A model generated the notes under the pieces. That model worked only from the letters and a program-made list of their open reading frames with translations. It searched no databases and had not been told where the DNA came from. This document shows positions 31,223 to 50,197 of a DNA stretch of 51,001 nt, in pieces. A program made the position numbers and the translations under genes. The stretch covers positions 1 through 51,001 of the forward strand of contig CADEFJ010000012.1 in assembly GCA_902826575.1 (NCBI GenBank), written 5' to 3'. Within the stretch, counting starts at the first letter, position 1. Each line of letters begins with the position of its first letter. Source of the stretch: an uncultured Pseudomonadota bacterium (GTDB taxonomy: Bacteria > Pseudomonadota > Gammaproteobacteria > Steroidobacterales > Steroidobacteraceae).

Positions 31223-31264
31223 GTCTGCAATCTCCGTGGGGGGTGGCGATCAACTCTGGGCGCC

Positions 31265-32197: not shown

Positions 32198-32200
32198 CGA

Positions 32201-32683: not shown

Positions 32684-32695
32684 GATTCGGGCCCG

Positions 32696-32724
32696 AGCAT
32701 AACACCGGGTGTATGCGTTGCAAA
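32696..32724 (-). promoter_or_regulatory. phaR promoter with the same TTGCA..GCATAC box
   Basis: The minus strand shows -35 TTGCAA (32723-32718), a 16-bp spacer and -10 TATGCT (32701-32696). The box TTGCAACGCATAC matches the phasin-promoter box in 11 of 13 positions, including its place at -35. This supports autoregulation by PhaR. Confidence 0.6.
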
Positions 32725-32871
32725 ATGAGCAGGCGCGAAGATTGGGAGTGTTGCGGCAAATGCGAGTGATTTATGTATTTATTTCATAAGGATACGTGCT
32801 TTGAAGGAATCCCTGAATCGTGACACACCGCATACTATTGGCTGCTGCGACGCATAAATCGGGGAGAGTCC

Positions 32872-34520: not shown

Positions 34521-35926
34521 CGACTTCGCAACCCGCGCAGGCATTGGGCCTGTTGCGTAACCGCACTTTCGACGAGCTCGCGCTCGGCGACAGCGCCTGC
34601 ATCGAACGCACGCTGACGCAGCAGGACATCCAGTGGTTAGCGGGGATCTGCGGCGACGTCGATCCCGGGTTCGTTCGATCCACGCGCGAACAGGGCGTGA
34701 TCGCGCAGGGCATGTGGGGCAGCGCGCTGATCGCGGCTGTGCTGGGCACGCGTCTGCCCGGACCCGGCACGACCTACCGCAGTCAGGCGCTGCGCTTCCT
34801 CGCGCCGCTGCAGCTGGGTGACCGAATGGCGGTGCGGCTGACGGTCGTCGCGAAGGACCCGGCGACACGGTGCGTGACACTGACCTGCGCCTGCACCAAC
34901 CAGGCCGGCGTGGTGGTGATCGAGGGCGAGGCCGGGGTGATCGCCCCGGACGAGCGCATCGAACTCTCACGAAGCACGCTGCCGGAGATCCGCCTCGACG
35001 TGGCCGGCAACGACGGCCTGCAACGGCTGCTCGCCCACGTGGCGCCGTTGCAGGCGATCCGCGTGGCTGTGGTTCATCCCTGCGATGCATTGAGCCTCTC
35101 GGGTGCGCTCGATGCGCGCGACGCCGGCCTGATCGTGCCGGTGCTGATCGCGCCGCGCGCGAAGCTTGCGGCAGCTGCCGCTGAGGCAGGGGTCGACCTG
35201 TCCGGGCTCGAGACCCTGGACGTGCCGCACAGCCATGCTGCCGCCGCGCGCGCTGCCGAACTGGCCGCCAAGGGCGAGGTGGAGGCGCTGATGAAGGGCA
35301 GCCTGCACACCGACGAGCTGATGGCCGCGGTGGTGGCCTCGGCCGCGGGACTGCGCACCAAGCGCCGGGTCAGCCATTGCTTCGTGCTGCAAACACCGCA
35401 CTATCCGCGACCGTTCATCGTCACCGACGCCGCGATCAACCTCGCGCCCGATCTCGCGCAGAAGGCCGACATCGTCCGCAATGCCATCGACCTGGCTCAC
35501 GCCATCGGCGTGGCCGAACCGAAAGTGGCAATTCTGGCCGCGGTGGAGACGGTCAGCCCGTCGATGCCGGCGACGCTCGACGCCGCGGCGCTGTGCAAGA
35601 TGGCCGACCGCGGGCAGATCACCGGCGCCCGCCTCGATGGCCCGCTGGCGCTGGACAATGCGGTGTCCATCACCGCTGCGCGCACCAAGGGCATCGTCTC
35701 GGACGTGGCGGGCCGGGCCGACATCCTGGTTGCGCCGGATATGGAGAGCGGCAACATGCTGGCCAAGCAGCTGATGTACCTGGGCGAGGCCGCCAGTGCC
35801 GGCATCGTGCTCGGCGCCAGGGTGCCGGTGGTCCTGACGAGCCGCGCCGACTCGCGCGAGTCGCGCATCGCCTCGTGCGCGATCGCGCTGCTGCTCGCCC
35901 ACCGTTACCGGAGCGCGCCGCCGTGA
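34517..35926 (+). CDS. MaoC-phosphotransacylase fusion
   Basis: This 469-residue fusion has an N-terminal MaoC-type hot-dog domain (about 12-140, TLTQQDIQWLAGICGDVDP) and a C-terminal phosphate acetyl/butyryltransferase domain (about 155-465). The latter includes HTDELMAAVVASAAGLRT and ADILVAPDMESGNMLAKQL. This is the form annotated as bifunctional enoyl-CoA hydratase/phosphate acetyltransferase. It is translationally coupled to phaC and to the kinase gene. The PTA domain would interconvert acyl-CoA and acyl phosphate, and the MaoC domain could hydrate enoyl-CoA to the (R)-3-hydroxyacyl form used by PhaC. The preferred acyl chain is unknown. Confidence 0.9.
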   Translation: MTTSQPAQALGLLRNRTFDELALGDSACIERTLTQQDIQWLAGICGDVDPGFVRSTREQGVIAQGMWGSALIAAVLGTRLPGPGTTYRSQALRFLAPLQLGDRMAVRLTVVAKDPATRCVTLTCACTNQAGVVVIEGEAGVIAPDERIELSRSTLPEIRLDVAGNDGLQRLLAHVAPLQAIRVAVVHPCDALSLSGALDARDAGLIVPVLIAPRAKLAAAAAEAGVDLSGLETLDVPHSHAAAARAAELAAKGEVEALMKGSLHTDELMAAVVASAAGLRTKRRVSHCFVLQTPHYPRPFIVTDAAINLAPDLAQKADIVRNAIDLAHAIGVAEPKVAILAAVETVSPSMPATLDAAALCKMADRGQITGARLDGPLALDNAVSITAARTKGIVSDVAGRADILVAPDMESGNMLAKQLMYLGEAASAGIVLGARVPVVLTSRADSRESRIASCAIALLLAHRYRSAPP

Positions 35927-37152
35927 GTGTCGCGCGTGACCGCTATCCGACTCGCGGCGCGCTGATCCTGGTGCTCAACTGCGGCTCCTCGAGCATCAAG
36001 TTCGCGCTGTTCGACGCCGGGCAGTCGCCGCTGCCGCGCGCTCCGGTGTGGAACGGCAAGGTGCAGGGCATCGGCGGCCCGGTGCCGACCTACGGTGAGA
36101 CCGGAATCGCGCCAAAGCCGCTCGCGCTGGATCCGCAGCACCCGTATCGAGCCGCGTTACAGCGCATCCGCGCGGGCGTGCTCACCCGCCTCGGTGATCG
36201 CAGGTTGCACGCCATTGCACACCGCGTGGTGCACGGTGGCAGCAAGTACTTCGATCCGGTGTGCGTGGACGCGCAGGTGCTGGCTGACCTGAAAAGCTAC
36301 ATCCCGCTTGCGCCGCTGCACCAGCCGTTCGCGCTCGAAGCGATCGAAATCCTGTTGGACGAGCGCCCGGACCTGCCGCAGGTAGCCTGTTTCGACACCG
36401 GCTTCCACCACACGATCCCGATGGTCGAGCAGATCCTGCCGCTGCCGTACGACGCCTGGCGCCGCGGTCTGCGTCGCTACGGTTTCCACGGCCTGTCCTA
36501 CGCCTACCTGAGCACCGTGCTGCCCGAGCGCCACGGCGAGGTCGCGCGCGGTCGCACCGTGATCGCGCACCTCGGCAGCGGCGCCAGCCTGTGCGCGATG
36601 CGTGAGCTGCGCAGTGTCGCCACCACCATGGGCTTCTCCGCGCTCGATGGACTGATGATGGGCACCCGCACCGGCGCGCTCGATCCGGGCGCGCTGATCT
36701 ACCTGATGCAGATCGAGAAGCTGTCGCTCGAGCAGGTCGGTCACCTGCTGTACCACGACTCCGGCCTGCTCGGCGTCTCGGGTCTCTCGTCCGAGCCACG
36801 CGTGATCGTGAAACACGAGGCTGACGAGGGCGAGGTCGGCGAACGCGCGCGCATCGCTCTCGCGCTGTACGTGCGTCGCATCGTGCGCGAGATCGGTGCG
36901 CTTGCCGCAGTGCTTGGCGGCCTTGACCTGCTGGTGTTCACCGCCGGCGTCGGCGAGCACAACGCTTTCATACGCGAACGTGTCTGTCGCGATCTGGCCT
37001 TCCTCGGCGCCGACTTGGATGCAGCCGCCAACGAGGCCGACGCAACTGTGATTTCTTCGCCGGCGAGCCGGGTCCTGGTCGGAGTGGAGCCGACCAATGA
37101 GGAGTGGATCGCAGCGCGCGATGCGGTAGCGTTCGCTAACGGCCGACCGTGA
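35923..37152 (+). CDS. Acetate kinase-type enzyme
   Basis: This 409-residue acetate/propionate-kinase-type ASKHA enzyme starts with GTG at 35923, overlapping the preceding stop. The nucleotide-binding opening is LVLNCGSSSIKFALFD. Later come ACFDTGFHHTIP with catalytic Asp, RYGFHGLSYAY, HLGSGASLCA, and VFTAGVGEHNAFIRERVC. It pairs with the upstream phosphotransacylase, so acyl-CoA could be turned into ATP plus acid, or acid activated to acyl-CoA for polymer. The ackA-like sequence favours acetate, but a longer acid is possible. Confidence 0.92.
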   Translation: MSVARDRYPTRGALILVLNCGSSSIKFALFDAGQSPLPRAPVWNGKVQGIGGPVPTYGETGIAPKPLALDPQHPYRAALQRIRAGVLTRLGDRRLHAIAHRVVHGGSKYFDPVCVDAQVLADLKSYIPLAPLHQPFALEAIEILLDERPDLPQVACFDTGFHHTIPMVEQILPLPYDAWRRGLRRYGFHGLSYAYLSTVLPERHGEVARGRTVIAHLGSGASLCAMRELRSVATTMGFSALDGLMMGTRTGALDPGALIYLMQIEKLSLEQVGHLLYHDSGLLGVSGLSSEPRVIVKHEADEGEVGERARIALALYVRRIVREIGALAAVLGGLDLLVFTAGVGEHNAFIRERVCRDLAFLGADLDAAANEADATVISSPASRVLVGVEPTNEEWIAARDAVAFANGRP

Positions 37153-37375: not shown

Positions 37376-38959
37376 CTAGAACGCCAGAATCCCCTGGATC
37401 ATGGGCACCCAGCCGTCGAGGCCGGAAGTGTAGGGCGTAAAGGTGCCGCTATAGGGTGCATTGTGTACGCGCATGATTTCGGCGTTGACCCACATCCGCT
37501 CGGTCGGCACGAAGTACCACTTCACGCCCGCGGCGTACTCCCACGAGTCGCCGAACTCCCCATAGACCCTTGAGCCGCGGCCATACACGGCCACCTTTTC
37601 GGGAACGACGAAGTAACTCGCCGACAACTCGAAGCCGTGGTCGCGCATGGAATCGAGCGGCATCGGGCCATCGGCGCTGAAGTCGCTGACCCGCCGGGAA
37701 TAGAACTGCCCGTTTACCGCGAGCCCGTTCCACTTCAGTCCGGCATCGATCGCCAACATTTCGTAGGTGGCCTCCTCGACGGTCACACCCGGGGCAAACG
37801 CTCCGGTCGAGAAAGTCAGGATGCCATCGGAGTTGTACATGGACGTGTTCTCGGGACTCGATTGATCGAGATTCGAGAAGCGGTCCTCGCGCGACCTGGT
37901 GAATGCGGTTCCGAGCCGGATGCGAACCTGGTCGGACGCGAAATAGTCGTCGTACATGTGGCGTGACTTGCCGGCCTCGCCGTAATCACCGAGCGGCTCC
38001 CACCAGACACTGCCGGAGTACATGAGGTTCTCATCGATCTTGGTCGCCGAAAGACTCAGGGTGTTGAGGCCGTTGCCGACGAACGCCAGATAGTTCAGCC
38101 CGTCGATCAACTCGCCCTTGGCCCAGATCCCCTGCGTGAAGCCGGGGCGGAAGAAGTTGTCCGCCATGCTCCGGTCGCTGGCCGTGAAGAACGGAAAGGT
38201 GTCGACCAGCGAGCGGCTGCCAGGAACGCCGGTATACCCTCCGGTGAGTGTCAGGTGCTCGTTGAACTGCCAGCCGATCGTTCCGGCAATGACTATCGAC
38301 GCGGCGCCGGCCGACGTCCATACCGTGCTGCTGTAGCGCAGCCTCGGGTCGAATATGTAGCCGCCCAGGATGAACATCGTGCGGTTCACGGTGATGTCAT
38401 TGCGCGTATTGACATCGTGCACGCCGCCCAGGTGGTCGGTGAAGGTCTCCTCCGAATCGAGCGAGTTCAGGTAGCGGACTTGCGTATTGACGTTGAACTT
38501 CAGAAGGAAGGGCACACTGGCGTCGTGGGGCGTCTGCCACACGACGATGCCGTCCTGGTACCGATCGACGATATTGCGCGTGGCTTGCTCCGCGAAGCTC
38601 GCGGGAACCGTGACCGGGACTTCGGTTGCGGCTGTCGCTGCGGGCGTGTCAGGCGCGGATTGCAGCGGCGTCGCGGCCACGCCGGTCGTGGCGACCACGC
38701 CAGGCGTGGCCGCCACGGCTCCGGCGGTCGCACCCGTATTGCGACGCAGGCTCTCGACCAGCTCGAGCAGTTCTCTCTGCTGCTCGTCCAGCCTGCGCAA
38801 CTGTTCGCGCATGAGCGCGTTCTCGCCCTTCAGGGCCTCGACGTCGCCCTGTACGTCACCGGCATTGCGTTCATCCGCACGGGCGGGCGTCGCGAGCAGC
38901 GCGGCCGAGCACGCTGTCGCGACCAGCAGTCCGAGTCGGGTACGCTGCTTCAATTTCAA
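37376..38959 (-). CDS. Outer-membrane porin with N-terminal coiled coil
   Basis: This is an outer-membrane beta-barrel protein of about 527 residues. I place the start at TTG 38959 (MKLKQRTRLGLLVATACSAA), 11 bp after the serine dehydratase stop, so the signal peptide is complete; the start is uncertain. Next comes a coiled coil (about residues 30-70, MREQLRRLDEQQRELLELV), an Ala/Thr/Pro linker to about 115, and a barrel with strands ending in Phe (GILAF). The layout resembles the porin at 48656-50197 and a few phosphate-selective-like porins. It is co-transcribed with the exported serine dehydratase and may pass its substrate or product. Confidence 0.85.
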   Translation of the reverse strand: MKLKQRTRLGLLVATACSAALLATPARADERNAGDVQGDVEALKGENALMREQLRRLDEQQRELLELVESLRRNTGATAGAVAATPGVVATTGVAATPLQSAPDTPAATAATEVPVTVPASFAEQATRNIVDRYQDGIVVWQTPHDASVPFLLKFNVNTQVRYLNSLDSEETFTDHLGGVHDVNTRNDITVNRTMFILGGYIFDPRLRYSSTVWTSAGAASIVIAGTIGWQFNEHLTLTGGYTGVPGSRSLVDTFPFFTASDRSMADNFFRPGFTQGIWAKGELIDGLNYLAFVGNGLNTLSLSATKIDENLMYSGSVWWEPLGDYGEAGKSRHMYDDYFASDQVRIRLGTAFTRSREDRFSNLDQSSPENTSMYNSDGILTFSTGAFAPGVTVEEATYEMLAIDAGLKWNGLAVNGQFYSRRVSDFSADGPMPLDSMRDHGFELSASYFVVPEKVAVYGRGSRVYGEFGDSWEYAAGVKWYFVPTERMWVNAEIMRVHNAPYSGTFTPYTSGLDGWVPMIQGILAF

Positions 38960-38970
38960 CAGCGGGTTGC

Positions 38971-40581
38971 TCAGCAGAGCGTCACCGCCACCGCGAGTCC
39001 GCCCTCCGAAGTTTCCTTGTACTTCGAGTTCATCTCTTTCGCAGTGAGCGCCATCGCCGCAACCGTCGTGTCGAAGTCCACGCGCCGGTCGACGGGGATC
39101 TCGTTGCTCGCGATCATGAATCCCGTCCATGCCTTGACGGCCCCGTAGGCGCAGCGCTCGATGCAGGGGACCTGCACATAGCCGGCCACCGGATCGCAGG
39201 TCATGCCGAGGTGATGTTCGAGCGCCGATTCAGCGGCATTGGCGACGACCTGGTGGTCGAAGTCGTGCGCCTGCGCGATAAGCGCCGCGCCCATGGCGGA
39301 GGCGACACCGATCTCGGCCTGGCAGCCGCCTTCGGCGCCCGCCAGCGTCGCGTTGTGCTTGCCGAGATACCCGACACAGGCGGCCGCGAGCAGGCCGCGG
39401 CGGATCTTCGCCTGCGGCAGCTTGCGTCCACCTGCGCCTAGCGCATAGACGAGGGCCGGAATCACGCCGGCCGAACCGCCGGTGGGCGCGGTCACGACCA
39501 GATGGCCGCGCGCATTTTCTTCGGAACCGGCCAGCGCATACGCGGCGATCACGCCGATGCCCTGTTCGCGCGCGTACTCGTTGTCCTGCGCGCGCTTCAG
39601 CACCTCGCCCGCCTTGGTCTTGAGCTTGATGGGCCCGGGCAGGACGCTGACCGGCATCGAGAGGCCCGATTTCACGATGTTGACCATCGCGGTGCTGATC
39701 TTGTCGAGGAAGGCGTTGATTTCCTGCTCGCTCTTGCCGGAGACGGCGACCTCGTTCGCCATCACGACATCCGCGATGCCGATCTTGTTGGCGACTGCGT
39801 GCTTCTGCAGCTCGGCCATGGTCGCGTACGGATACTTGGGCTGGCCCTTCTTCGGCGGCGTATAGCCTTTCCATTCGATGAAACCGCCGCCCACCGAGTA
39901 ATACTCGAGCTCGTGCAGGACCGTGTTGCCGCCCATGAGCTTGCAGGTCATGGTGTTCGGGTGCGGGAATTCACCCTTCGGTGCGTCGTAGATGATGTCT
40001 TTCAGCGACGCGTTGAAAGTCTTGTTGCCGAGCTTGACCGGGAAGCCCTGGTCCGGCCTGTCGCGCAATTCATCGAGGAACAGCGGGTCGATCGTGGCCG
40101 GCTCCTTGCCGATGATGCCGGCGAGTGCGGCACGCTCGGTGCCATGGCCCTTGCCGGTGGAGCTCAAGCTGCCGTAGAGATGGACTTTGAGCGCTGTTGC
40201 CTTGGCCAGCGTCGCGGCGGGCAACTTCGTGCAACGCTGGTAGAAATCGTAGGTGATGCGCATCGGGCCAATGGTGTGGGAACTCGACGGGCCCGGGCCT
40301 ACCTTGTAGAACTCCTCGAGCGTGGTCATCACCGGACCCTTGCCGCGCTTTGCGACAAAGAGTGTCGGCGACATGCCGCTCATGGGCGAAGTGGCGCCGG
40401 CCGCTTTCTTCGCCGTCTCCTGTGCCGTCGCGGGGGGCGCGCCGGACAGCACCGCCACCGCGCTGATCATCGCGCTGCGCATCATGAAGGCGCGCCGATC
40501 GACGCCCGACGGAAGTTCAGGGATGTCCGTCCCAATTTCCGTCGGGGCCATGCTTTTCGAATCGCTGTCGTTTGAACTCAT
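38971..40581 (-). CDS. Iron-sulfur L-serine dehydratase with Tat leader
   Basis: This 536-residue single-chain L-serine deaminase of the 4Fe-4S type converts serine to pyruvate and ammonia. Serine binding is seen in GPGPSSSHTIGPM. The cluster cysteines are Cys420 (GGCQAE), Cys462 (MTCDP) and Cys473 (VPCIERC), with spacings 42 and 11 as I recall for the Legionella enzyme. The terminal residue is Cys536, the mobile tail ligand. Unusually, the protein carries an N-terminal twin-arginine pattern at Arg29-Arg30 (DRRAFMMRSAM) and a hydrophobic run ending PPATAQ, absent from cytosolic relatives. Tat export would suit a folded iron-sulfur protein. Start ATG 40581 is chosen because upstream codons look noncoding. 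Confidence 0.9.
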   Translation of the reverse strand: MSSNDSDSKSMAPTEIGTDIPELPSGVDRRAFMMRSAMISAVAVLSGAPPATAQETAKKAAGATSPMSGMSPTLFVAKRGKGPVMTTLEEFYKVGPGPSSSHTIGPMRITYDFYQRCTKLPAATLAKATALKVHLYGSLSSTGKGHGTERAALAGIIGKEPATIDPLFLDELRDRPDQGFPVKLGNKTFNASLKDIIYDAPKGEFPHPNTMTCKLMGGNTVLHELEYYSVGGGFIEWKGYTPPKKGQPKYPYATMAELQKHAVANKIGIADVVMANEVAVSGKSEQEINAFLDKISTAMVNIVKSGLSMPVSVLPGPIKLKTKAGEVLKRAQDNEYAREQGIGVIAAYALAGSEENARGHLVVTAPTGGSAGVIPALVYALGAGGRKLPQAKIRRGLLAAACVGYLGKHNATLAGAEGGCQAEIGVASAMGAALIAQAHDFDHQVVANAAESALEHHLGMTCDPVAGYVQVPCIERCAYGAVKAWTGFMIASNEIPVDRRVDFDTTVAAMALTAKEMNSKYKETSEGGLAVAVTLC

Positions 40582-40818
40582 ATGGCACACGCCGTGAGGC
40601 GCCCTCCACAAAGCTGTGTCCGGGTTGGTGGAACTGCGACAGGGCGAGACTCTATGCGCCGCCTTCTGGCGTTGGTACTGCCCCAAGAGGCAGACCCTGC
40701 GCGCCCCTGCGGCAGTGTTGCAGTCGCTCCGGTGCTCCATGTTTCCCTTATGGGCAGGGGACGAGCGGTCCGAGGCGGGTGCATCTTGGGCGGGCAGCGG
40801 GATTCGCGGGGAAAGTCA

Positions 40819-41355
40819 ATGAAACTGTGTGCGCAGCTCGTGTTCCTGGCAGCGCTGGGAATGATCGACACGCCGACAACGGCACAAGAGTCTTCGCAAT
40901 CAACGGCCACGGGCCTGTCCGAAGTGACGTGGACCAGCGAGGGCAGCTACGAATGGAGCCGCCCTTTGCATGTACGGTACGTACTGATCCGGGCCCGCGG
41001 CGGCGGCGCAGGCGCGGCCACCACTACCACGCTACTCGGTCCGTTCTCGTCCGACCGCTACACCATCGTCATCGGACGCGGAGGCTCCGGTGGTGCGTCC
41101 AAGGTTGCATCCCGCTCGAGCAACGACCCGAAGGGTTCCGGCGGTGAAGGCGGAACGCCGACCAGTTTCACCGGCGAAGATCTGTCGTTCGGGTCGCCGG
41201 GCGGGTTCGGGGGCACCGCCGGCAAGGCGCAAAGCCGCATGAGCGCCGGGGGAACGATGTACGAATTCGTCGTGACTCGCGCGGGCGGCAGTGGCGGCAT
41301 GTATCCCGGCGGCGGTACCGCGCAGGACGGCGCGCGGGGCGATCGACTCCGCTAG
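40819..41355 (+). CDS. Glycine-rich exported protein
   Basis: This 178-residue protein has a Sec leader (MKLCAQLVFLAALGM, cleavage near TAQ at residue 23). The mature part is extremely rich in Gly and Ser (GGGAGAATTT, GRGGSGGASK, GSGGEGGTPT, GGSGGMYPGGG). It reads like a structural or surface-associated protein. The start at 40819 follows GGGGAAAG. It runs 12 bp into the next gene, which codes for a barrel, and is divergent from the serine dehydratase. I recognise no family. Confidence 0.65.
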   Translation: MKLCAQLVFLAALGMIDTPTTAQESSQSTATGLSEVTWTSEGSYEWSRPLHVRYVLIRARGGGAGAATTTTLLGPFSSDRYTIVIGRGGSGGASKVASRSSNDPKGSGGEGGTPTSFTGEDLSFGSPGGFGGTAGKAQSRMSAGGTMYEFVVTRAGGSGGMYPGGGTAQDGARGDRLR

Positions 41356-41367
41356 CCAGGAGTTCCC

Positions 41368-42201
41368 ATGGGCAGCACGTGGCGATTGACCTGTTTGCTG
41401 GCGGCGGCCTTCCTGACGTCCCCGACGGAGGCTTGCGCCGCCGATGCCGTCGACTGGCGGTACTCGATGGGCCTGCACGATCTTGCCGTGCCGGACGTCG
41501 GCTCTGATACGTTCGGCATCAACGCATCGGCCTCGGTCGACATGCGCACCGCCGCCGGCCGCCACTACTTCGGGTCGGCCGACCTGTTCGTCGACCGTGA
41601 CCGGGACCACCTGGACCCGGACCACATCCCGGTCTGGTGGATGCTGCACGCTGGCACGGATGGCACGTGGCTTGCGCTCGGCGGGAACGGTCACCTCGGC
41701 TGGACGGCGGACGCCGACACGCGCATGAACACGACTAGCTCCATCGAGCGGCAGATCAAGCTGCTGTCGGCGGTCGTGCTCGGCTACGGCGGTGACGCCG
41801 TGCAGGCGTCGCTCCTGGCCGGTGTCGGCTGGTTCTTCCAGGAGATCGACGACGATGCGCCGAAGGAACGCGGGTTCACCCGCGAGGGGCTGCGCCATAC
41901 GACGGTGGCGGAATCCTGGGGCGGGAAAGTCGCGGCGCGCCTCGGCGGCGGCTGGAGCCTCTCGGGTTCGGCGCGGCAATGGCGCGATGGCGACGAATGG
42001 CTCGAGACGGAGTACGGCGCGCAGCTGCACCTGGCTGCCGACCGCTGGTTCAAGGCGAGCGGCAGCGAGTTCGTGCTCAGCGTCGAGGTCCACGAATACA
42101 ACCTGGATCCCTACCCGCATTCGGCGCAGGGGTCTGCCGTCCTCGGCTGGAACGACGACTTGCTGATCCGCCTGTCCTGCAGCCTGCCCTGGGCGCGCTA
42201 G
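41368..42201 (+). CDS. Exported beta-barrel-like protein of unknown function
   Basis: This 277-residue protein starts with a signal peptide (residues 1-25, CACAADA-type end, LTSPTEACA). It reads as alternating hydrophobic and polar residues with many aromatic and Trp residues (AAGRHYFGSADLFVDRD, LLAGVGWFFQEID, SGSARQWRDGDEWLE), consistent with an outer-membrane barrel. The ending LIRLSCSLPWAR lacks a classical terminal Phe. It sits 12 bp after the glycine-rich gene. No family is evident. Confidence 0.6.
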   Translation: MGSTWRLTCLLAAAFLTSPTEACAADAVDWRYSMGLHDLAVPDVGSDTFGINASASVDMRTAAGRHYFGSADLFVDRDRDHLDPDHIPVWWMLHAGTDGTWLALGGNGHLGWTADADTRMNTTSSIERQIKLLSAVVLGYGGDAVQASLLAGVGWFFQEIDDDAPKERGFTREGLRHTTVAESWGGKVAARLGGGWSLSGSARQWRDGDEWLETEYGAQLHLAADRWFKASGSEFVLSVEVHEYNLDPYPHSAQGSAVLGWNDDLLIRLSCSLPWAR

Positions 42202-42759
42202 CGGTTTGCCTTGGGCCGCGGCGGCACCGTGCCGAGGCAGGTGTAGTTCTCCTTCAGCTCAGCGTCGCAACGTCGGTGGCGGCAATCGTGGAGAGCCGGC
42301 GATACTGGGCGCCCACGATGTGCTCGTTCCAGCTCCATGGCTGCAAAGTACCGTGTGCGAATTGCAGATCTTGCCGAACTCGGTGACGAGCTTCCCGCTC
42401 TTCGCGTCCGCCTGATCTCCAACCTTCTTCTGCGCGGCGAGCGGCGCCTGGATGCTGCCGGTACGAACGTACTGCACCCTGCGCCGTTGGCCGCCGGCGT
42501 GGTGCGCGGGCGAGCCCCAGGCCGTGAGGGTTCCGTCGCGGAATGCTGCGTCCCCCAACCGCTTCTGCAGTTCCTTGACGATCTCGCCCGCTCGCTCCTG
42601 CTGAGTCAGGTCGCACTTGAATCAGGTGGCGTGGATGTACGGCTCGGGTGGATCGTACTACGCGCGCGCGATACCCCACCATCTCGCATACACCAGCGAC
42701 GCGAGAGCAGTCGCCCCGATGATTCCTTTCACCATGGCATTACCCTTGTCGGCCTGCAT
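42198..42759 (-). pseudogene. Decayed gene with stops and a frame change
   Basis: In one minus-strand frame, a membrane-like start (MVKGIIGATALASLVYARW, from 42735) ends at a TAG at 42658-42660. The same frame is then interrupted by a TGA a few codons on, but afterwards continues with a protein-like sequence (LTQQERAGEIVKELQKRLGD, then GDQADAKSGKLVTEFGKIC). A plausible C-terminus (ELKENYTCLGTVPPRPKANR) lies in another frame. I read this as one degraded gene; it may instead be two tiny genes and noncoding DNA. Confidence 0.35.
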
Positions 42760-42805
42760 GGCCGATCCTGGGGTCCCAGTACAGACCTTTGGCCAGCCAT
42801 GACGT

Positions 42806-44116
42806 CTACAGCTGAAGCTGCAGGCGTGTCTGGAAGAACTGCGTCGCACCCCGCAGCCCGAAGCGATCGAGCACGCCATAGCCGTAGGCGAACTCGAGGC
42901 GCACGTTGTCGCTCAGGTGCCAGTTCACGAGCGGGGTAATGCGCCAGAACTTGCCGCCCTGGATCGCGCGGGAGTCGAGGTCGGTATAGGAGTAGCGGAG
43001 TACGAACTCCCAGGCGCCGGGACCACCTTCGAATACGGTCCGCGCGGGCGAGACGCGATCGAACGTGGTCGTCGTGGTGTTGTACGGTCGAACTTCGCCG
43101 GTGGCGATCCAGGCGATGAACGCTTCCCCGCCGTGGAAGAATGGGTCTTCCGCCTCTCGCGAATGCACCTGGTCGAAGAAGTACTCCATGCCGAACAACA
43201 GCGGGCCCGGGCGGTAATAGGTCTCGATGGCGACGATGTCGGAGCCCTGCGCGGCGAAGCGACCGGTGTCAATGGCATAGCTCTGGGCGGGAAACGACTC
43301 GGGCTTCGAGCGCATTTGCAACGTGCCGTCGTCGGCTTTCGCATGGCGCCATGCCATGCCGAGGTGAAGCAAGCGCTCGGGGTCCGAGAGCAGGAAGGGC
43401 AGCCACACCACGCGCCCCACCACCTGGCTGTCGCTGCGATTGAACGATTCGTCGTCCGAGAGCTGGTCGCCGAACCAGCCGAGGCTGTAGGCGATGCGGC
43501 CGTCCTTCGAGTTGCCCATCCACTTGATGCCATCGGCGAGGATCGGCAGGAACGCATCGTTCGCGGTGGCGCGCTCCATCGTCCATCCCTGGTAGCCCAC
43601 CATCATCTTGTTGGTGGATATGCCTTCCTTGGTGCGCCCGACGAACACGCGGCCGCGCAGCGCCGGGACTTCGTATTGCAGGCCCGATTGGCGGAACTTC
43701 CATTCCTCGGTGGCTGCGTCGTACATGTAGCCGAGCGTGTAGCTGAGTCCCTCGATGCGCGTGAAGCGGCCTTTCAGCAGGAAGCGGAAGTCGCGCAGCT
43801 TGTCGGTCGGCTCGAGTCCCATCTGCTCCTTGCTGTCCGCATCCTGACTGTAGGCTGCGTGGTCGTACAGGAAGCCCCCGCCGATGCGCAGCGTGGCCCA
43901 CGGGCCCTCGATTTCGTTCCAGTTGACCAGGCGGCGACGAGGCACGTCGCCGTCGGCGCCCGCCGCTTCGGCGGTGGCGGTGAGCTGCGCTGTGTCGGGC
44001 TCCGGCTGTGTGTTCGCTTCGGACGAGACCTGCGCGGCGGCGAAAGTGCCGTACGCGCAGTTGACGATCAGGCCGGCAACGACCGCGACCGGCGCGGAAC
44101 TGCGCCGGCCGGTCAC
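42806..44116 (-). CDS. Porin_O_P-type outer-membrane porin
   Basis: This 436-residue protein starts at GTG 44116, only 2 bp after the asparaginase stop. It has a signal peptide to about residue 28 (GTFAAAQV), a short polar linker, and a 16-strand-like barrel with segments such as ATLRIGGGFLYDHAAYSQD and WRITPLVNWHLSDNVRLEF. The end is QTRLQLQL. It resembles the phosphate-selective OprO/OprP family, whose members also carry other anions. Tight linkage with asparaginase and aspartase genes suggests passage of amino acids, or of ammonium or fumarate. Confidence 0.88.
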   Translation of the reverse strand: MTGRRSSAPVAVVAGLIVNCAYGTFAAAQVSSEANTQPEPDTAQLTATAEAAGADGDVPRRRLVNWNEIEGPWATLRIGGGFLYDHAAYSQDADSKEQMGLEPTDKLRDFRFLLKGRFTRIEGLSYTLGYMYDAATEEWKFRQSGLQYEVPALRGRVFVGRTKEGISTNKMMVGYQGWTMERATANDAFLPILADGIKWMGNSKDGRIAYSLGWFGDQLSDDESFNRSDSQVVGRVVWLPFLLSDPERLLHLGMAWRHAKADDGTLQMRSKPESFPAQSYAIDTGRFAAQGSDIVAIETYYRPGPLLFGMEYFFDQVHSREAEDPFFHGGEAFIAWIATGEVRPYNTTTTTFDRVSPARTVFEGGPGAWEFVLRYSYTDLDSRAIQGGKFWRITPLVNWHLSDNVRLEFAYGYGVLDRFGLRGATQFFQTRLQLQL

Positions 44117-44118
44117 GC

Positions 44119-45180
44119 TCAGTACGCGCCGAACAGGGCCTGGATGTCGGCGGCTTTGCGCGGCTTCAGCAGCGCGAGCGAAAGCAGCACGCGCGACTTC
44201 TGCGGGTTCAGCTCGTCCGAGGCGATGAAACCGAGCTTGTCGTCGTCGAGTTCCACGTTGCGGCCCACGAACCCGGTCGCCACGCGGCTGCTGCGGACCA
44301 CGAACACGCCCTTCTTCACCGCGCGTGCGGCAGCGTCCACCATCGCCTTGTTCATGTTGCCGTTGCCCACACCTGCGATCACGATTCCCTTTGCCCCGCG
44401 CTCGACCGAGGCATCGATCAGGTCGGCGGCGGCGTCGACGCCGCCATACACGATGTCGACCCTCGGCAGGCTCTTGACCTTCGAGATGTCGAACTCGCTC
44501 GCGGTCGTGTGCTTCCAGGACGGCGACTGGTAGAAGTCGTTCTTGCCGTAGCTCGCGATGCCCACCACGCCGCGCACCGGCGAGAGGAAGGTTTCCACCG
44601 CGGTCGTGCTGGTCTTGGTGAGCGAATGCGCCGCGTGGATCCTGTCGTTCATCACGACCAGCACGCCGCGTCCCTTCGCATCCGGGTCCACCGCGACGCC
44701 AACCGCGTTATAGAGGTTCAGCGGGCCGTCGGCACTGACCGCGGTCGAAGGGCGCATCGAGCCGACCATCACCACCGGCTTGTTCGTCTTCACCGTGAGA
44801 TTCAGGAAGAAGGCCGATTCCTCCATGGTGTCGGTACCGTGCGTGATCACGAAGCCGTCGACCTTTGGATCGGCGGCGAGCGCGTTGATGCGTCGCGCGA
44901 CCTTCATCAGGATGTCGAACGACATGTCCTGCGAGCCGACGTTCGAGATCTGCTCGCCCTTCACGGTGGCGAGCTTGTCGATGCCGGGCACGGCGGCGAG
45001 CATGGCGTCGATGGTGACCGCGCCGGACGTATAGCCCGACTGCGTGCCGGTGGCGGCGGCGCCGGCGATGGTGCCGCCGGTGGCGAGGATGACCACGTTC
45101 GGCTTGCGATCGGCCGCGTGGGCGAGCGAGAGCATCGCGAGCATCGCGATGCCCAGTGCGTGTCGTGTCATTGCGCGCAT
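44119..45180 (-). CDS. ansB: Type II periplasmic L-asparaginase
   Basis: This 353-residue asparaginase hydrolyses asparagine to aspartate and ammonia. The start at ATG 45180 follows GGAG by 7 bp, with a Sec leader ending LAHA (about residue 22). The catalytic Thr37 is in ILATGGTIAGAA, and the second Thr-Asp pair is in HGTDTMEES. The remaining substrate loop and SSRVATGFV are present. Type II enzymes work in the periplasm with high affinity. The gene is in a tight operon with aspartase upstream (16 bp) and a porin downstream (2 bp). Confidence 0.94.
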   Translation of the reverse strand: MRAMTRHALGIAMLAMLSLAHAADRKPNVVILATGGTIAGAAATGTQSGYTSGAVTIDAMLAAVPGIDKLATVKGEQISNVGSQDMSFDILMKVARRINALAADPKVDGFVITHGTDTMEESAFFLNLTVKTNKPVVMVGSMRPSTAVSADGPLNLYNAVGVAVDPDAKGRGVLVVMNDRIHAAHSLTKTSTTAVETFLSPVRGVVGIASYGKNDFYQSPSWKHTTASEFDISKVKSLPRVDIVYGGVDAAADLIDASVERGAKGIVIAGVGNGNMNKAMVDAAARAVKKGVFVVRSSRVATGFVGRNVELDDDKLGFIASDELNPQKSRVLLSLALLKPRKAADIQALFGAY

Positions 45181-45196
45181 GGCCAATCTCCAGTGC

Positions 45197-46675
45197 TTAC
45201 TGCGGATACGTGCCCAGGTTCGAGAGCTTCACGGGGTCCAGCAGATCCTTGATCTGGGCCTCGGTGAGGATCTTCTTCTCGCGGATGAGTTGAATGAGCC
45301 CCTTGTCGGTGCGATAGGCCTCGTCCGCGAGCTCGGTCGCTTTCTCGTAGCCGATCACGGGATTCAGCGCGGTCACGATGCCCACCGTCGTCTCCATGTA
45401 GTGCGCGAGCACCTTCTCGTTCACCGTGATGCCGTCCACCGCCCTGGTGCGCAGCGTCCCGGCGCCGCGGCGCAGGATCTCCTGCGATTCGAGCACCGCG
45501 AGGCCCGTGAGCGGCTCGTAGGCGTTCAGCTGCAGTTGCCCGGCATGCGAGGCGATACCCACCGCCGCGTCGTTGCCGATCACGCGGAACGCGATGACAT
45601 TGATGAGTTCCGGTACCACCGGATTCACTTTGCCGGGCATGATCGAGGAGCCCGGCTGGATGGCTGGCAGGTTGATCTCCGCGAGACCCGCGCGCGGTCC
45701 GGATGCCAGCAGGATCAGGTCGCCGGCGATCTTCGACAGCTTGATCGCGACGCTCTTGAGCGCCGCGGAGTAGATCACGAAGCCCTGCTGGTCCCAGGTG
45801 GCCGCCAGCATGTCCCCGGCGGGCACGATGGGTTTGCCGGTGAGTTTCGCGAGCTCGATGGCGACCGCCGCCGTGTAGCCTTGCGGCACGTTGATCCCCG
45901 TGCCGATCGCGGTGGCACCCATGTTCTGCGAGTACAGCGCCTTCTCCGCTTCCTTGAGGAACATGATCTCCGATTCGATCGAGGCACCGAAGGCGTGGAA
46001 TTCCTGGCCGACTGTCATCGGCACCGCGTCCTGCAGTTCGGTGCGACCCATCTTCGGGATTCTGAGGAATTCATTGCCCTTGGCGCGGAACGCGCGCGCG
46101 AGCTGGCCGAGTTCGGCGACGAGTTTCTCGTTGCGCAGGATGAAGGCGACCTTGATCGCGGTCGGATACGAGTCGTTCGTCGACTGCGACATGTTCAGGT
46201 CGTCGTGGGGCTCGAGGAACTGGTACTCGCCCTTGCGATGGCCGGTGAGCTCGAGCCCGACGTTCGCCATGACCTCGTTGACGTTCATGTTCGCCGAGGT
46301 GCCTGCGCCGCCCTGGTACCAGTCGACGAGGAACTGATCGCGATACTCCCCGGCGCGGATGGCCTTGGCAGCCATCTCGATCGCGGCAAGGCGCTCGGGC
46401 TTCATCGCGCCGACCTGGGTATTCGCGCGCGCGGCGGCGAGCTTGACGATCACGAACGCGTCGACGAATTCGGGGTAGTGGTTCATGTCGACGCCGGAGA
46501 TCTGGAAGTTCTCGAGCGCGCGCGCGGTCTGCACGCCGTAATAGGCCGCGGCTGGCACCTGTTTCTCGCCCAGCAGGTCGTGTTCGGTGCGGGTGGCGCC
46601 CTGGTCCGCGGCGAGCGCCGCGACCGACGCCATCAAGGACAGCAGGGCGGCAGCCAACCACTTCTCGCCTGACAT
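45197..46675 (-). CDS. aspA: Aspartate ammonia-lyase with signal peptide
   Basis: This 492-residue enzyme of the aspartase/fumarase superfamily has the signature GSSIMPGKVNPV (Ser343-Ser344 in the mobile loop), TNDSYPTAIK and the conserved HDDLNMSQSTND. The sequence is aspartase-like throughout (LLGEKQVPAAAYYGVQTARA). It releases ammonia from aspartate and leaves fumarate. Unlike cytosolic aspartases it begins with a Sec-type leader (residues 1-22, WLAAALLSLMASVAALA). The start ATG 46675 follows GGGGAGA. It lies next to the asparaginase that makes its substrate. An alternative is a fumarase, but the active-site runs favour aspartase. Confidence 0.9.
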   Translation of the reverse strand: MSGEKWLAAALLSLMASVAALAADQGATRTEHDLLGEKQVPAAAYYGVQTARALENFQISGVDMNHYPEFVDAFVIVKLAAARANTQVGAMKPERLAAIEMAAKAIRAGEYRDQFLVDWYQGGAGTSANMNVNEVMANVGLELTGHRKGEYQFLEPHDDLNMSQSTNDSYPTAIKVAFILRNEKLVAELGQLARAFRAKGNEFLRIPKMGRTELQDAVPMTVGQEFHAFGASIESEIMFLKEAEKALYSQNMGATAIGTGINVPQGYTAAVAIELAKLTGKPIVPAGDMLAATWDQQGFVIYSAALKSVAIKLSKIAGDLILLASGPRAGLAEINLPAIQPGSSIMPGKVNPVVPELINVIAFRVIGNDAAVGIASHAGQLQLNAYEPLTGLAVLESQEILRRGAGTLRTRAVDGITVNEKVLAHYMETTVGIVTALNPVIGYEKATELADEAYRTDKGLIQLIREKKILTEAQIKDLLDPVKLSNLGTYPQ

Positions 46676-46746
46676 GTTTCGTCTCCCCGACGCCCGATCC
46701 GGGCACCGGGGACGCTACTCCCGCGTTGGCAGCGGAAGTACTGCCT

Positions 46747-48585
46747 CTAGGGGAAGCCTGTGAATGTATCGACCACCCGCCCGAGGGTGAGCATCGGCAC
46801 GCCGCCGCATTCGACGATGGCGTCGTTGAACCCGCGCAGGTCGAAGCGGGCCGCCAGCGTTTGCCGTGCCTGCGCACGCAGCCGGTTGATCTCGCTGTGG
46901 CCGATCTTGTAACCGCAGGCCTGGCCGGGCCAGGCGCAATAGCGATCCACTTCGCTCGTCACTTCCTCGAGACCTGAGCCGTTGGTGCTCGCGAACCACT
47001 GGATCGCCTGGTCGCGGGTCCAGCGCCGGGCATGCAGCCCGGTGTCGACGACCAGCCGGCAGGCGCGGAAGGCGATCGATTGCAGGTAGCCGAGGCGCCC
47101 GAGCGGATCGCCGTCGTAGACGCCGAGTTCGTCGGCCAGCTGTTCGGCGTAGAGCGCCCAGCCTTCCGAGTACGCATTGAAGGCGAGCAGTGAACGGGCG
47201 AGCGGCAGGCCGAACGTGTACTCGCCCTGCCACACGTGTCCCGGGATCGATTCGTGGAATACCAGCGTGGGCAGCGAATAGCTGCGCCATACGTTCATGT
47301 CGTGCAGGTTGATCCAGAACTTGCCAGGTACCTTGCCGTCAATCGTACCGGGGCCGCCGTAGGCACCGGGGGCGCCCGGCTCCACCTCGGGCGGCATGCG
47401 CTTGATCTCGAGCCGGCCGGGCACCAGCTTCGCAAACGCCTGCGGCAGCCGTGGGCGGATCCGGTCCACGCTCTCGTGCAGGTAGGCCATGAGTCTCGCG
47501 CGGTCCGCATCGGTATCGGCATAGCGGTAGCGTGGCTCGCGGCCGAGCGCCGTCATGCGCTCACCGACCGAGCCCTGTGTCATGCCGAGATCGCGCAGGA
47601 TGACGTCCATGCGCGCCTGCAGGGCGCGCAGCTCCTCCTCGCCGCGGCGGTGGATTTCCTCGGGCGTCTCGCGGGTGGTGGTTCCAGCTACGAGGCACCA
47701 CGCGTAGTACTCATCGCCGTGCGGAAGCTTCCAGACGCCGGCATCCGCCGTCGCGCGCCGCCGGTGGGCTTCGAGTTCGGCAAGCTGGCGCGCGAGCGCC
47801 GGCGCCACCGCGTCCTTCGCAATCCGCGCGGCGTGCTCCCCGTAGGTGCCGCCCATGCCCCGGGTGCGTTCCACGAGCGAAGCCACCAGCGGCCACGCCG
47901 AGACATCGCCACCCTGCGCGATGCGCAATTGCGCGAGTGTCTTGTCGAGCAGGAAATCCGGTGCGATCACACCCAGCGCGGCCGCGCTTCGCAGGCGTTC
48001 CGTCTCCCCATCGAGCTGCCTTGCATAAGAGGCGAGCCGCTCGAGGTAAGACTCCGCGTCGTCGCGATTGGCCACCGCATGCTGCTCGGTGAGCAGGCCC
48101 GGGATCTCGAGGAACGCCCCCGTGTTCTGCGCGACGACATAGGGCGCGTTGCGCCACGACCAGTTGAGGTTGAGCAGCGCCACGTCGCCGTAGGGAAACC
48201 GCATGCCTTCCGTCGCGAATTCATGCGCGGTGCGCAGTACGTCGATGTCGATGCGTTCCACGGGGGACAGCGCCGACAGGTCGATCGATCCGATGCGTTC
48301 GAGTCGCGCCGCGACACGGCTGGCGATGGCCGCCTGCCCCTCGGCGGAGCGATCCGAGAGGCGCGACTTCAGCGCGCCACGTGCACCGTGGTCGATTCCG
48401 AGGGCGGTCGCGTTCTCGGGGTATTCCGCGAGCAACTCATCGGCGAACGGTGCAAGCAGCCGTTCGCGATCATGGGCGGCGGAACGGGTGGCCGCACGGG
48501 CGGGTAGTTGCGCGGCGAGCAGCGCTGCGCCGCTCGCGGCCATGAATTCCCTGCGGGTGGCGGTGGAGCCTGCGGACCTGGTCAT
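46747..48585 (-). CDS. DUF885 exported peptidase-like protein
   Basis: This 612-residue protein has a Tat-type leader (Arg-Arg at residues 11-12, ATRREFMAASGAALL, cleavage near PARA). The body matches DUF885, related to zinc metallopeptidases, with HESIPGHVWQGEYT (His-Glu...Gly-His) as the metal-binding helix. Downstream is the usual YAEQLADELGVYDGDPLGR. It probably cuts small peptides in the periplasm. It lies between a porin gene (upstream) and aspartase (downstream), all on one strand with 70-bp gaps. Confidence 0.88.
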   Translation of the reverse strand: MTRSAGSTATRREFMAASGAALLAAQLPARAATRSAAHDRERLLAPFADELLAEYPENATALGIDHGARGALKSRLSDRSAEGQAAIASRVAARLERIGSIDLSALSPVERIDIDVLRTAHEFATEGMRFPYGDVALLNLNWSWRNAPYVVAQNTGAFLEIPGLLTEQHAVANRDDAESYLERLASYARQLDGETERLRSAAALGVIAPDFLLDKTLAQLRIAQGGDVSAWPLVASLVERTRGMGGTYGEHAARIAKDAVAPALARQLAELEAHRRRATADAGVWKLPHGDEYYAWCLVAGTTTRETPEEIHRRGEEELRALQARMDVILRDLGMTQGSVGERMTALGREPRYRYADTDADRARLMAYLHESVDRIRPRLPQAFAKLVPGRLEIKRMPPEVEPGAPGAYGGPGTIDGKVPGKFWINLHDMNVWRSYSLPTLVFHESIPGHVWQGEYTFGLPLARSLLAFNAYSEGWALYAEQLADELGVYDGDPLGRLGYLQSIAFRACRLVVDTGLHARRWTRDQAIQWFASTNGSGLEEVTSEVDRYCAWPGQACGYKIGHSEINRLRAQARQTLAARFDLRGFNDAIVECGGVPMLTLGRVVDTFTGFP

Positions 48586-48655
48586 GGGCGCATTCTTCAG
48601 GCCGGGCGGCCGAAGATCAACATCGTGCCGCCCGGCCGGGGCCGGGCGGATCGAC

Positions 48656-50197
48656 TCAGAAGTTCAGCTCGAAATTGAGGTGGAAGACGTCCCCGTTGCC
48701 GCCGACGGGATAGGGCACGGCCGTATAGCCGACGGGGATGTCATCGAGGCGTAGCCATTCGCCATTCACGCGGATGCCGCGCATTTCCTTCGGGAAGTAA
48801 TTCATGCCGAGGCGCAGCTCGCCCGAGTCTCCGTAACGGCCGTGGATCTCGGAGTAACCGGTGTAGACCTGGAACAGCTTCGGCACGAGCATCGCCGAGG
48901 CCTGTACCTGGAAGCCGGTATCGTCGATATCGTCGATCAGTCCGGGCGTCACGCCGGGCCCGCGGAAATCGCTGAGGTGGCGCCAGTAGTACTCGGCCTC
49001 GAGGGAGTAGCCGCGGTACTTGATGCCCGCGTCGAGGCTCGCCATCTGGTAGCGGACATCGTCGACTTCGATGCCGGGACCGAAAAGATTCGGCGTGAAA
49101 ATGATGTTGCCATCCGTCAGCCGGATCTGGGTGTTCTCGATATTGTCGGTGCCCGGCTGCTCCTGGCTGTTCTCGGTGCTGTGCGTGTAATGCACGCCGA
49201 TTCGCGTCGCGACTTGCTGGTGGTTCTCGAAGTCGCCGAAGGCGCCGATCGGCCCGAACTCATGTGTGGTCGGCAGCCAGTTGAGCATCAGCGAATACGT
49301 GTCGATCTTGTTGTCGATCTGCGAGGCACTGACTCCGAGGATGCTCATGTTGGTGGCGAGCATCGCCTGGTAGTTGAGTCCGGGCACGATGGTGCCCTTG
49401 AGCCACACACCCGTCGAGTAGGACGGCCGCATGAACTCATCCGCCGTCATGCGATCGTCGACGCCGAGCCAGTAAGGAAACTGGCCTTCGGTGCTGCGCA
49501 CCCCGGGCAGCGAGGTGATGCCCATGCCGAGCGTCATCCGCTCGTTGAAGACCCAGCTCAGGTTTCCCGCGCCGACAACCTGCGCAGGATCGCCCTGTGC
49601 CGTGTTCGCCGACCAGACATAGAGATAGAAGCGGAACTTCGGGTCGAGGAACCAGCCGGAGAACGGCAGGAAGAATTTCTGCAGCTGGAAGTCCTGACGC
49701 AGTGGCACCTCTTTCACGTTGCCGAAGGAGTCGGTATAGGTCGGGTCGAGTCCCTTCTGGTTCAGGTAGCGCGCGTAGCTGAAGAGGCGCATGTAGAACT
49801 GTGCCCGCTCGCCGTCGTAGATCTTCACGCCGAGGTTGCCGATGTATTCCGGCGCATCCGTGCCTTCGAGGCGTGCGGATGCAGCGCCGGCGGACTCGAC
49901 GGCTGGGGCGGACGTGGCGGCGGATGCTGCGGACGCGGTCGAAAGGGTGGTCGCAGCGCTGTCGGTCGTTGCGGTCGGCGGGGCAGTAGTCACGGCGGCC
50001 GCGGCCGCAGGCTGTGCAGCCTTGGCGCCCAGCGCCTCCTGCAGCAGCCGCTCGAGTTCGCGGATGCGGGCGTCCTGCGCGGCAAGCTGCTCTTCGAGGT
50101 GCAGCTGCCGTTCCTCGACGGAGCGTGTGTCCGGCGCGCCGCTCGCCAGCGCGGGCAGGGCGACGAGGAACAGTACGGAGCGGCGGAGTCCCTGCAT
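48656..50197 (-). CDS. Outer-membrane porin with N-terminal coiled coil (paralogue)
   Basis: This 513-residue protein starts at ATG 50197 with a signal peptide ending near residue 20 (ALASGA). A coiled coil follows (about 22-55, QLHLEEQLAAQDARIRELER), then an Ala/Thr/Ser linker to about residue 110, and a barrel with a terminal Phe (LNFELNF). The barrel has segments matching the other coiled-coil porin (for example GLNYQAMLATNMSILG against GLNYLAFVGNGLNTLS). It precedes DUF885 on the same strand. It probably forms a specific channel. Confidence 0.88.
   Translation of the reverse strand: MQGLRRSVLFLVALPALASGAPDTRSVEERQLHLEEQLAAQDARIRELERLLQEALGAKAAQPAAAAAVTTAPPTATTDSAATTLSTASAASAATSAPAVESAGAASARLEGTDAPEYIGNLGVKIYDGERAQFYMRLFSYARYLNQKGLDPTYTDSFGNVKEVPLRQDFQLQKFFLPFSGWFLDPKFRFYLYVWSANTAQGDPAQVVGAGNLSWVFNERMTLGMGITSLPGVRSTEGQFPYWLGVDDRMTADEFMRPSYSTGVWLKGTIVPGLNYQAMLATNMSILGVSASQIDNKIDTYSLMLNWLPTTHEFGPIGAFGDFENHQQVATRIGVHYTHSTENSQEQPGTDNIENTQIRLTDGNIIFTPNLFGPGIEVDDVRYQMASLDAGIKYRGYSLEAEYYWRHLSDFRGPGVTPGLIDDIDDTGFQVQASAMLVPKLFQVYTGYSEIHGRYGDSGELRLGMNYFPKEMRGIRVNGEWLRLDDIPVGYTAVPYPVGGNGDVFHLNFELNF

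Follow-up and report, generated by a model that had tools for sequence, protein, structure and literature searches.

The window analysed here is a stretch of 51,001 nucleotides at the start of contig CADEFJ010000012.1, from an uncultured member of the Steroidobacteraceae. Its minus strand carries, between positions 37376 and 50197, a gene set for an outer-membrane porin (porinA), an iron-sulfur L-serine dehydratase (SdaA), a Porin_O_P-type porin, a type II L-asparaginase (AnsB), an aspartase (AspA), a DUF885 protein and a second porin (porinB). Both aspartase and the iron-sulfur serine dehydratase are textbook cytosolic enzymes; in this set, the dehydratase begins with a leader for twin-arginine translocation (Tat) and the aspartase with one of the Sec type. 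We read the window as two modules of putatively exported ammonia-lyases, which are joined elsewhere to import and fermentation genes. An earlier note on this DNA had described leaders on four enzymes, and scoring of the leaders by motif and hydrophobicity bears this out: a Tat leader on SdaA (Arg29-Arg30), Sec-type leaders on AspA and AnsB, and a Tat-type leader on the DUF885 peptidase. The features of the set are as follows.

37376..38962, minus strand: porinA, outer-membrane porin adjoining SdaA; the longest open frame starts at 39130, inside SdaA, and the true start is uncertain
38971..40581, minus strand: Tat-SdaA, one-chain [4Fe-4S] L-serine dehydratase of 536 amino acids; ATG at 40581
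40423..40581, minus strand: Tat leader of SdaA, with Arg29-Arg30, a hydrophobic stretch and a cleavage site placed by eye between ATA and QE
42806..44116, minus strand: Porin_O_P-type porin directly downstream of AnsB (PF07396, E 5e-19)
44119..45180, minus strand: type II L-asparaginase AnsB; ATG at 45180 or 45171, leader at about 45115-45180
45197..46675, minus strand: aspartase AspA with export leader, 492 amino acids; ATG at 46675; NF008909 (PRK12273) 637 bits, cut-off 510
46610..46675, minus strand: Sec-type leader of AspA, about 22 amino acids, with a cleavage site placed by eye between ALA and AD
46747..48585, minus strand: DUF885 peptidase with Tat-type leader (PF05960, E 7e-146); ATG at 48585; TRREF, hydrophobic stretch and ARA, as read in the window protein alone
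48656..50197, minus strand: porinB, a porinA relative that shares its neighbour cluster and has relatives in loci L063, L067 and L113

A Serine Dehydratase With a Tat Leader

SdaA is a fusion of the Pfam domains SDH_alpha and SDH_beta, scores 375 bits against TIGR00720 (cut-off 345.1) and finds the L-serine dehydratase 4rqo as its top match in the PDB (E 3e-78). The protein reads MSSND...GVDRRAFMMRSAMISAVAVLSGAPPATAQE, and the residues that precede homology to the solved L-serine dehydratase are MSSND...DRRAFMMRSAMISAVAVLSGAPPATAQE; this homology starts at residue 86 of SdaA (residue 89 of the 539-residue query). Relatives were collected through a short-peptide-pattern scan of one genome per species in 84,980 species, which misses distant relatives, and the best 80 of 83 confirmed relatives were kept. 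An RRxF motif followed by a hydrophobic stretch is found in 75 of these 80 and in none of 30 canonical SdaA (Fisher 4e-22, uncorrected for relatedness). All 80 relatives entered this count, including two at contig ends (L068, L114) that were counted as having no motif; the other three proteins without it have open sequence upstream. The canonical controls consist of 29 loci from 29 genomes, out of 43 with an SdaA match among 59 searched, together with the canonical copy that the window's genome also holds (G000:C1, 41% identical to Tat-SdaA). No match above 43% identity came from the remaining 58 genomes searched. By pattern, an AxA site is present in 59 of the 75 motif-bearing proteins and a lipobox-like site in 13. 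The features of a Tat substrate found for SdaA thus comprise RRxF, a hydrophobic stretch, an AxA or lipobox site and a TatC encoded in the window's own genome, and it is very likely that Tat-SdaA crosses the inner membrane.

In order to compare residues, 117 distinct sequences were aligned (76 exported, 41 canonical), leaving out cores shorter than 400 amino acids, late starts and identical rows. The three cluster cysteines and the motif PSSSHT are invariant in both sets, and the C-terminal cysteine is present in 76/76 exported and 40/41 canonical proteins. The cluster cysteines of the exported set align with positions 361, 403 and 414 of the 4rqo chain; we take the ligands of the Legionella enzyme to be C343, C385, C396 and the C-terminal cysteine, and the chain numbers fit these with an offset of 18. 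Altogether, Tat-SdaA appears to be an intact member of the serine dehydratase family and is predicted to be a serine ammonia-lyase. One further cysteine, in the motif PCIERC, is invariant in the 76 exported proteins, whereas all 41 canonical proteins have asparagine there (IERN). It lies four residues past a cluster cysteine, and it may alter cluster ligation or oxygen tolerance. A total of 25 positions are fixed differently between the two sets, three of which are gaps in the canonical one. Identity within the exported set is at least 59%, whereas it reaches at most 43% between the sets (mean 38%), and in a quick tree the exported proteins form one side of a branch with a Shimodaira-Hasegawa-like likelihood ratio (SH-aLRT) support of 100. 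By leader and tree, the predicted exported SdaA is a distinct subfamily set apart from cytosolic SdaA.

The system is also wider than the earlier note saw, and several phyla carry the exported type of SdaA. Its relatives come from Gammaproteobacteria, Alphaproteobacteria (Microvirga, Sphingomonas, Caulobacter, Phenylobacterium), Acidobacteria, Verrucomicrobia and Bacteroidetes. Metagenome bins are frequent among them; the cultured carriers among the matches, Caulobacter sp. Root1455, Microvirga lupini and Edaphobacter aggregans DSM 19364, make the system open to testing. Phylum labels change nine times on the tree of exported SdaA, against a minimum of three, a count in which 18 rows are unlabelled and of which the starred branches alone force fewer; this hints at horizontal transfer between phyla. 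A single SDH_alpha match was found in 22 of 43 genomes, the window's included, and since these genomes were reached via Tat-SdaA loci, the exported SdaA is the only copy found in those 22.

An Aspartase and an Asparaginase With Sec-Type Leaders

AspA belongs to the Pfam families Lyase_1/FumaraseC_C, and its assignment as an aspartase rather than a fumarase holds by profile and motifs. Solved aspartases match at E 1e-143 and named fumarases from about 1e-95. The score against TIGR00839 (596) lies under the cut-off of 681, yet above that for fumC (420). The exported AspA keeps the active-site motifs, which differ from those of the fumarase-like protein at L116 with the exception of GSSIMPGKVNP. 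The window's genome also encodes a fumarase-like protein, so named by its motifs alone, that is 43% identical to AspA. One motif reads GRTE in 14/14 exported AspA and GRTQ in 13/14 canonical ones, a possible sign of a shift in substrate or pH.

The hydrophobic leader of AspA stands directly ahead of the aspartase start, with homology to solved aspartases beginning at residue 28-29. Among 29 distinct sequences (matches under about 350 residues, late starts and identical rows having been left out, and the contig-end AspA of L042, L077 and G499 standing outside the scoring), a leader with a score of at least 2.05 is found in all 14 at 63% identity or more. At 60% or less it is found in 1/15, where the open frame around it is far longer. 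The 14 make up a single clade, supported at 100/100 and nested within aspartases. An in-frame ATG at 46633, within the leader of the window's AspA, would yield a leaderless form, but its use is unlikely because the family keeps the leader. The earlier note had named start-codon artefacts among the things that would refute export. For both lyases this explanation was rejected on the conservation of the leader (75/80 SdaA against 0/30; 14/14 AspA against 1/15), and AspA, like SdaA, very likely crosses the inner membrane.

Matches to AspA at E 1e-150 occur in 4/296 genomes of the window's order, its own included, and in 12/297 genomes of Acidobacteriota, the phylum of G337. Three of these 12 (one of them a seed) match at 72% identity or more, the copy of G499 being cut by its contig. 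Exported AspA also occurs in Bacteroidetes. Of the 42 genomes (43 of the 80 loci) with Tat-SdaA that were searched, 12 have an AspA match at E 1e-120, and eight of these are of the leader-bearing type.

AnsB scores 435 bits against TIGR00520 (cut-off 314), matches PDB 1wsa at E 5e-111 and has its leader in frame; the profile score and the leader together make it a type II L-asparaginase. Type II asparaginases are normally periplasmic and bear leaders, so that the leader of AnsB is unsurprising. Its relatives adjoining exported AspA have leader-like starts as well. The proposal that asparagine is converted to aspartate and fumarate, and serine to pyruvate, outside the inner membrane is hence backed by the leaders of SdaA, AspA and AnsB, from which such reactions would be predicted.

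Genes That Accompany the Two Lyases

The neighbourhood of Tat-SdaA was examined in all 80 loci, of which 44 are full-length (each at least 20 kb; counts for these in parentheses), with each neighbour cluster checked by profile on one representative. Pyruvate formate-lyase (PFL) occurs near Tat-SdaA in 45 (33) loci, PflA in 42 (33), AckA in 34 (25) and Pta in 32 (23). Carriers include MFS proteins in 28 (15), AspT-type proteins in 27 (21) and Dcu in 3 (1). AspA is near in 7 (2) loci, AnsB in 6 (2), glutaminase in 6 (4) and RidA in 4 (1). Porins comprise porinA in 15 (7) and DcaP in 13 (8), and Porin_O_P or DcaP porins are found near exported AspA; the link with porins that had been suggested for this system is supported. 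None of these neighbours occurs in any of 12 canonical SdaA neighbourhoods (0/12 for each), one set of which comes from the window's own genome and the others from 11 genomes to which Tat-SdaA loci had led; three of the 12 neighbourhoods are shorter than 15 kb. The representatives score 1137 for PFL (TIGR01255, cut-off 994), 269 for PflA (TIGR02493, 232), 513 for Pta (PRK11890, 413) and 368 for AckA (TIGR00016, 293); the AspT-type carrier matches Asp-Al_Ex.

The tie to PFL can also be followed within one order. Among 296 genomes of Sphingomonadales, the order of G321, Tat-SdaA is present in six and PFL over cut-off in eight. All six lie within these eight, with gene distances of 1.36-1.41 kb, and two of the six are seeds. 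Many of these genes come together on an acidobacterial contig (Pyrinomonadaceae, G336:C75), on which one strand carries SdaA, an MFS carrier, Pta, pyruvate:ferredoxin oxidoreductase (PFOR; TIGR02176 1768, cut-off 911), a DHODH-like gene, AckA, PFL, PflA, a leader-bearing AspA, AnsB and Dcu (TIGR00770 437, cut-off 331).

AnsB adjoins exported AspA in 9/12 flanks, L152 and L155 among those in which it is present, and of the three flanks without it, two run into the end of their contig within AspA or shortly behind it. Dcu adjoins exported AspA in 3/12 flanks, and AspT-type or SLC13-type carriers and porins are found in others. At the level of genomes, Dcu was found in 7/14 with exported-type AspA (assigned by identity, G499 included) vs 3/34 others. 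Relatives of the window's Porin_O_P-type porin lie near AspA or AnsB in L146, L150, L151, L154 and L155.

Two further families near the lyases carry leader-like starts. RidA-family proteins have them in 4/4 loci near Tat-SdaA (L077:5536-5970, L080:3142-3579, L099:11716-12147 and L113:8984-9415), and an exported Rid protein is unexpected in itself. RidA acts on the enamine that serine dehydratases free, and for this reason a leader-bearing RidA fits a dehydratase on the outside. The glutaminase has a leader-like start in all five loci read, out of six found near Tat-SdaA, and in 2/12 flanks of exported AspA; PF04960 glutaminases with such N-termini lie near exported SdaA or AspA in L063, L067, L073, L107, L113, L146 and L153.

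The DUF885 peptidase, which the earlier note had made part of the system, was rejected as a core partner. Neither the 80 SdaA loci nor the 12 exported-AspA flanks contained a relative of it; it is co-located and probably lies outside the core.

A Proposed Periplasmic Half of a Fermentation Route

Since the neighbours elsewhere are importers and genes of pyruvate and acetate fermentation, we propose that the system, which some soil and water bacteria appear to use, forms the outer part of a route of fermentation. We give a probability of roughly 0.7 to periplasmic deamination that is coupled to the import of pyruvate and fumarate and to an inner fermentation or fumarate respiration. The genes, leaders, residues and neighbours can be seen directly; export, activity, substrates, carriers and the direction of flow would follow from them in this way. 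Porins would let amino acids enter the periplasm, where AnsB would convert asparagine to aspartate and AspA would release fumarate and ammonium from it. Tat-SdaA would be exported folded with its cluster and would form pyruvate and ammonium from serine, so that the nitrogen would remain outside the inner membrane. Folded proteins are described as Tat cargo in one report (PMC10924467), and a split in which the [4Fe-4S] SdaA takes the Tat route while AspA and AnsB take that of Sec is sensible. Pyruvate could then be imported by an MFS or AspT-type carrier and split to acetyl-CoA by PFL or PFOR, with ATP gained through Pta-AckA. Fumarate could be imported by a Dcu, AspT-type or SLC13-type carrier, probably in exchange for succinate, and would serve as carbon source or electron sink. 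The same export step is expected for the window's organism. The self-contained periplasmic pathway that had been suggested is thereby retained in part: export of SdaA, AspA and AnsB is supported, whereas the genes fall into two separable modules and their neighbours point to importers and fermentation.

Several observations weigh against this proposal. Neither PFL nor Dcu was found in the window's genome (a draft of 3.11 Mb in 225 contigs, 89% complete), and fermentation via PFL or use of Dcu by the window's organism is unsupported. Dcu was likewise not found in 7/14 genomes with exported-type AspA. In eight of the 44 full-length loci, SdaA is accompanied by no fermentation or carrier gene of those listed and by neither AspA nor AnsB, and three relatives (L046, L086, L106) show no in-frame RR though their contigs extend upstream. 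Only 7/80 Tat-SdaA loci have AspA nearby: leader-bearing in L089, L090 and L077 (the last read from the full copy in G330), leaderless in L039, L059 and L107, and cut in L042. Leader-bearing AspA was found in only 8/42 Tat-SdaA genomes. Several of the lineages are aerobes, while the SdaA of Campylobacter jejuni is described as oxygen-labile (PMC4178425).

The small number of shared loci is also what an unlikely but serious alternative would predict, namely that two modules, AnsB/AspA/porin and Tat-SdaA/porin, have come to lie by chance beside each other and beside a DUF885 gene unrelated to them, and that they share no function. In line with it, G010 has leader-bearing AspA and AnsB but SdaA matches at canonical identity only, and the AspA near Tat-SdaA is leader-bearing in no more than the three loci named. 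Chance accounts less well for G330 and G336, in which SdaA, leader-bearing AspA and AnsB share contigs. It also accounts less well for the frequency of leader-bearing AspA, which is present in 8/42 Tat-SdaA genomes vs 3/295 others of the window's order (Fisher 4e-6, uncorrected for relatedness and taxon).

The enzymes could instead serve nitrogen scavenging or local alkalinisation, in which case ammonia would be the goal and the carbon skeletons would be a by-product. AnsB and the exported glutaminase both release ammonia by deamidation, and the missing PFL and Dcu of the window's genome would agree with such a purpose. We consider it quite unlikely: the recurrent neighbours are carriers for carbon acids and PFL/Pta/AckA, and 0/30 neighbours run against Pfam are an ammonium carrier, glutamine synthetase or urease, the genomes at large not having been searched for these.

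Divergence of the enzyme raises the question of its substrate. With a mean identity of 38% to canonical SdaA, 25 positions fixed differently and the extra cysteine of IERC for IERN, Tat-SdaA might act on cysteine or another hydroxy amino acid. This is improbable for a protein that passes the equivalog cut-off of TIGR00720, keeps PSSSHT and the cluster cysteines invariant and is linked to enzymes of pyruvate. Finally, the N-terminal extensions might be anchors or folding tails of enzymes that remain cytosolic or sit on the inner side of the membrane, for which the long regions ahead of RR in SdaA and a membrane-attached form suggested by the lipobox-like site in 13/75 could speak, but this is highly improbable given the AxA site in 59/75, the leader-like starts of the linked AnsB, RidA and glutaminase, and an RR that would be superfluous for an inside anchor.

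To carry the proposal of periplasmic deamination coupled to import further, we speculate, with somewhat less than even confidence, that the loci represent a widespread and probably horizontally spread fermentation. Exported lyases, one of them a [4Fe-4S] enzyme carried by Tat, would act first and release the ammonia, and only carbon skeletons would cross the inner membrane, perhaps against succinate, formate or acetate. Uptake would be nearly free and ammonia would be left outside.

Relation to Known Systems

The gene row AnsB-AspA-DcuA of Actinobacillus succinogenes resembles one module closely: according to PMC10634366, genes for a periplasmic asparaginase II, an aspartase and a Dcu antiporter stand in a row, and fumarate serves as electron acceptor. 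That species imports aspartate and is described as keeping AspA in the cytoplasm, whereas here AspA has a leader and fumarate would be imported; the Dcu of such a fumarate-respiration route was not found in the window's genome at its 89% completeness. The SdaC-SdaA pair of C. jejuni provides the parallel for the other module, with a [4Fe-4S] SdaA that converts serine to pyruvate. According to PMC4178425, serine is imported by SdaC in that organism, while the enzymes described here have a Tat leader and MFS or AspT-type carriers and PFL as neighbours. In addition, C. jejuni has an asparaginase and a GGT in the periplasm, and these turn asparagine and glutamine into aspartate and glutamate ahead of their import (PMC4178425); in that case only side-chain ammonia is removed outside, and aspartate itself is imported.

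Tat targeting of a deaminating enzyme across the inner membrane has a precedent in the membrane-bound L-amino acid deaminase of Proteus (PMC5651824 and PMC9561763). That enzyme uses flavin adenine dinucleotide and passes electrons to the transport chain, unlike the non-oxidative, fermentation-linked ammonia-lyases considered here. The Pfam families of SdaA, AspA and AnsB are SDH, Lyase_1/FumaraseC_C and Asparaginase only, with no flavoenzyme fold among them. Among the matches listed from open-access literature, a scope outside which most subscription journals lie, no description of an exported SdaA or AspA was found, and the passages on ammonia-lyases in PMC10924467 and PMC4758666 are irrelevant to the export of either.

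If the proposal holds, central amino-acid catabolism can be divided across the inner membrane, SdaA would represent a new class of Tat cargo, and carriers for pyruvate and fumarate are predicted. The exported clades span several phyla, and that of SdaA is genetically linked with PFL, with Pta-AckA and with carriers. It would further account for most of the PFL in Sphingomonadales, where PFL is rare (8/296, six beside Tat-SdaA).

Porins and Other Genes of the Window

PorinA has no Pfam match. Its structural model is a beta-barrel of low confidence (pLDDT of only 54.8), with OprP/OprO as the best PDB folds. Assignment of a substrate from this structure was abandoned, as the model is weak and the fold search says just porin barrel, OprP/OprO first. 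The comparison of porins covered 13/16 rows, leaving out L113 (in-frame stop), L073 and L048. An amidohydrolase stands alongside the porins in L048, L063, L067, L073 and L113, and four or more of the five copies have an N-terminus that resembles a leader; a DUF3300 and/or DUF2950 gene recurs in L038, L039, L047, L049, L077, L080, L083, L088, L089, L090 and L113.

The remaining features of the window are these.

34520..37152, plus strand: hydratase/phosphate acetyltransferase fusion (NF006045 700 bits, cut-off 282) and acetate kinase (TIGR00016 337, cut-off 293)
40582-41355 and 41368-42201, plus strand: two possible genes between SdaA and the AnsB side
51001: contig end, which cuts a TonB-receptor fragment

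Of the two plus-strand frames at 40582-42201, one has a weak match to Gly_rich_2; the other encodes 277 amino acids with a leader-like start and has no Pfam or NCBIfam match. The Pta fusion and AckA lie on the strand opposite to SdaA and could be the inner half of the route in this organism. Their closeness to SdaA may be due to chance, because they adjoin families of polyhydroxybutyrate (PHB) metabolism. This PHB cluster (28224-37152 of the window) includes PhaC, a phasin, a PHB regulator, SDR reductases and a PHA-synthase-III-E-like gene.

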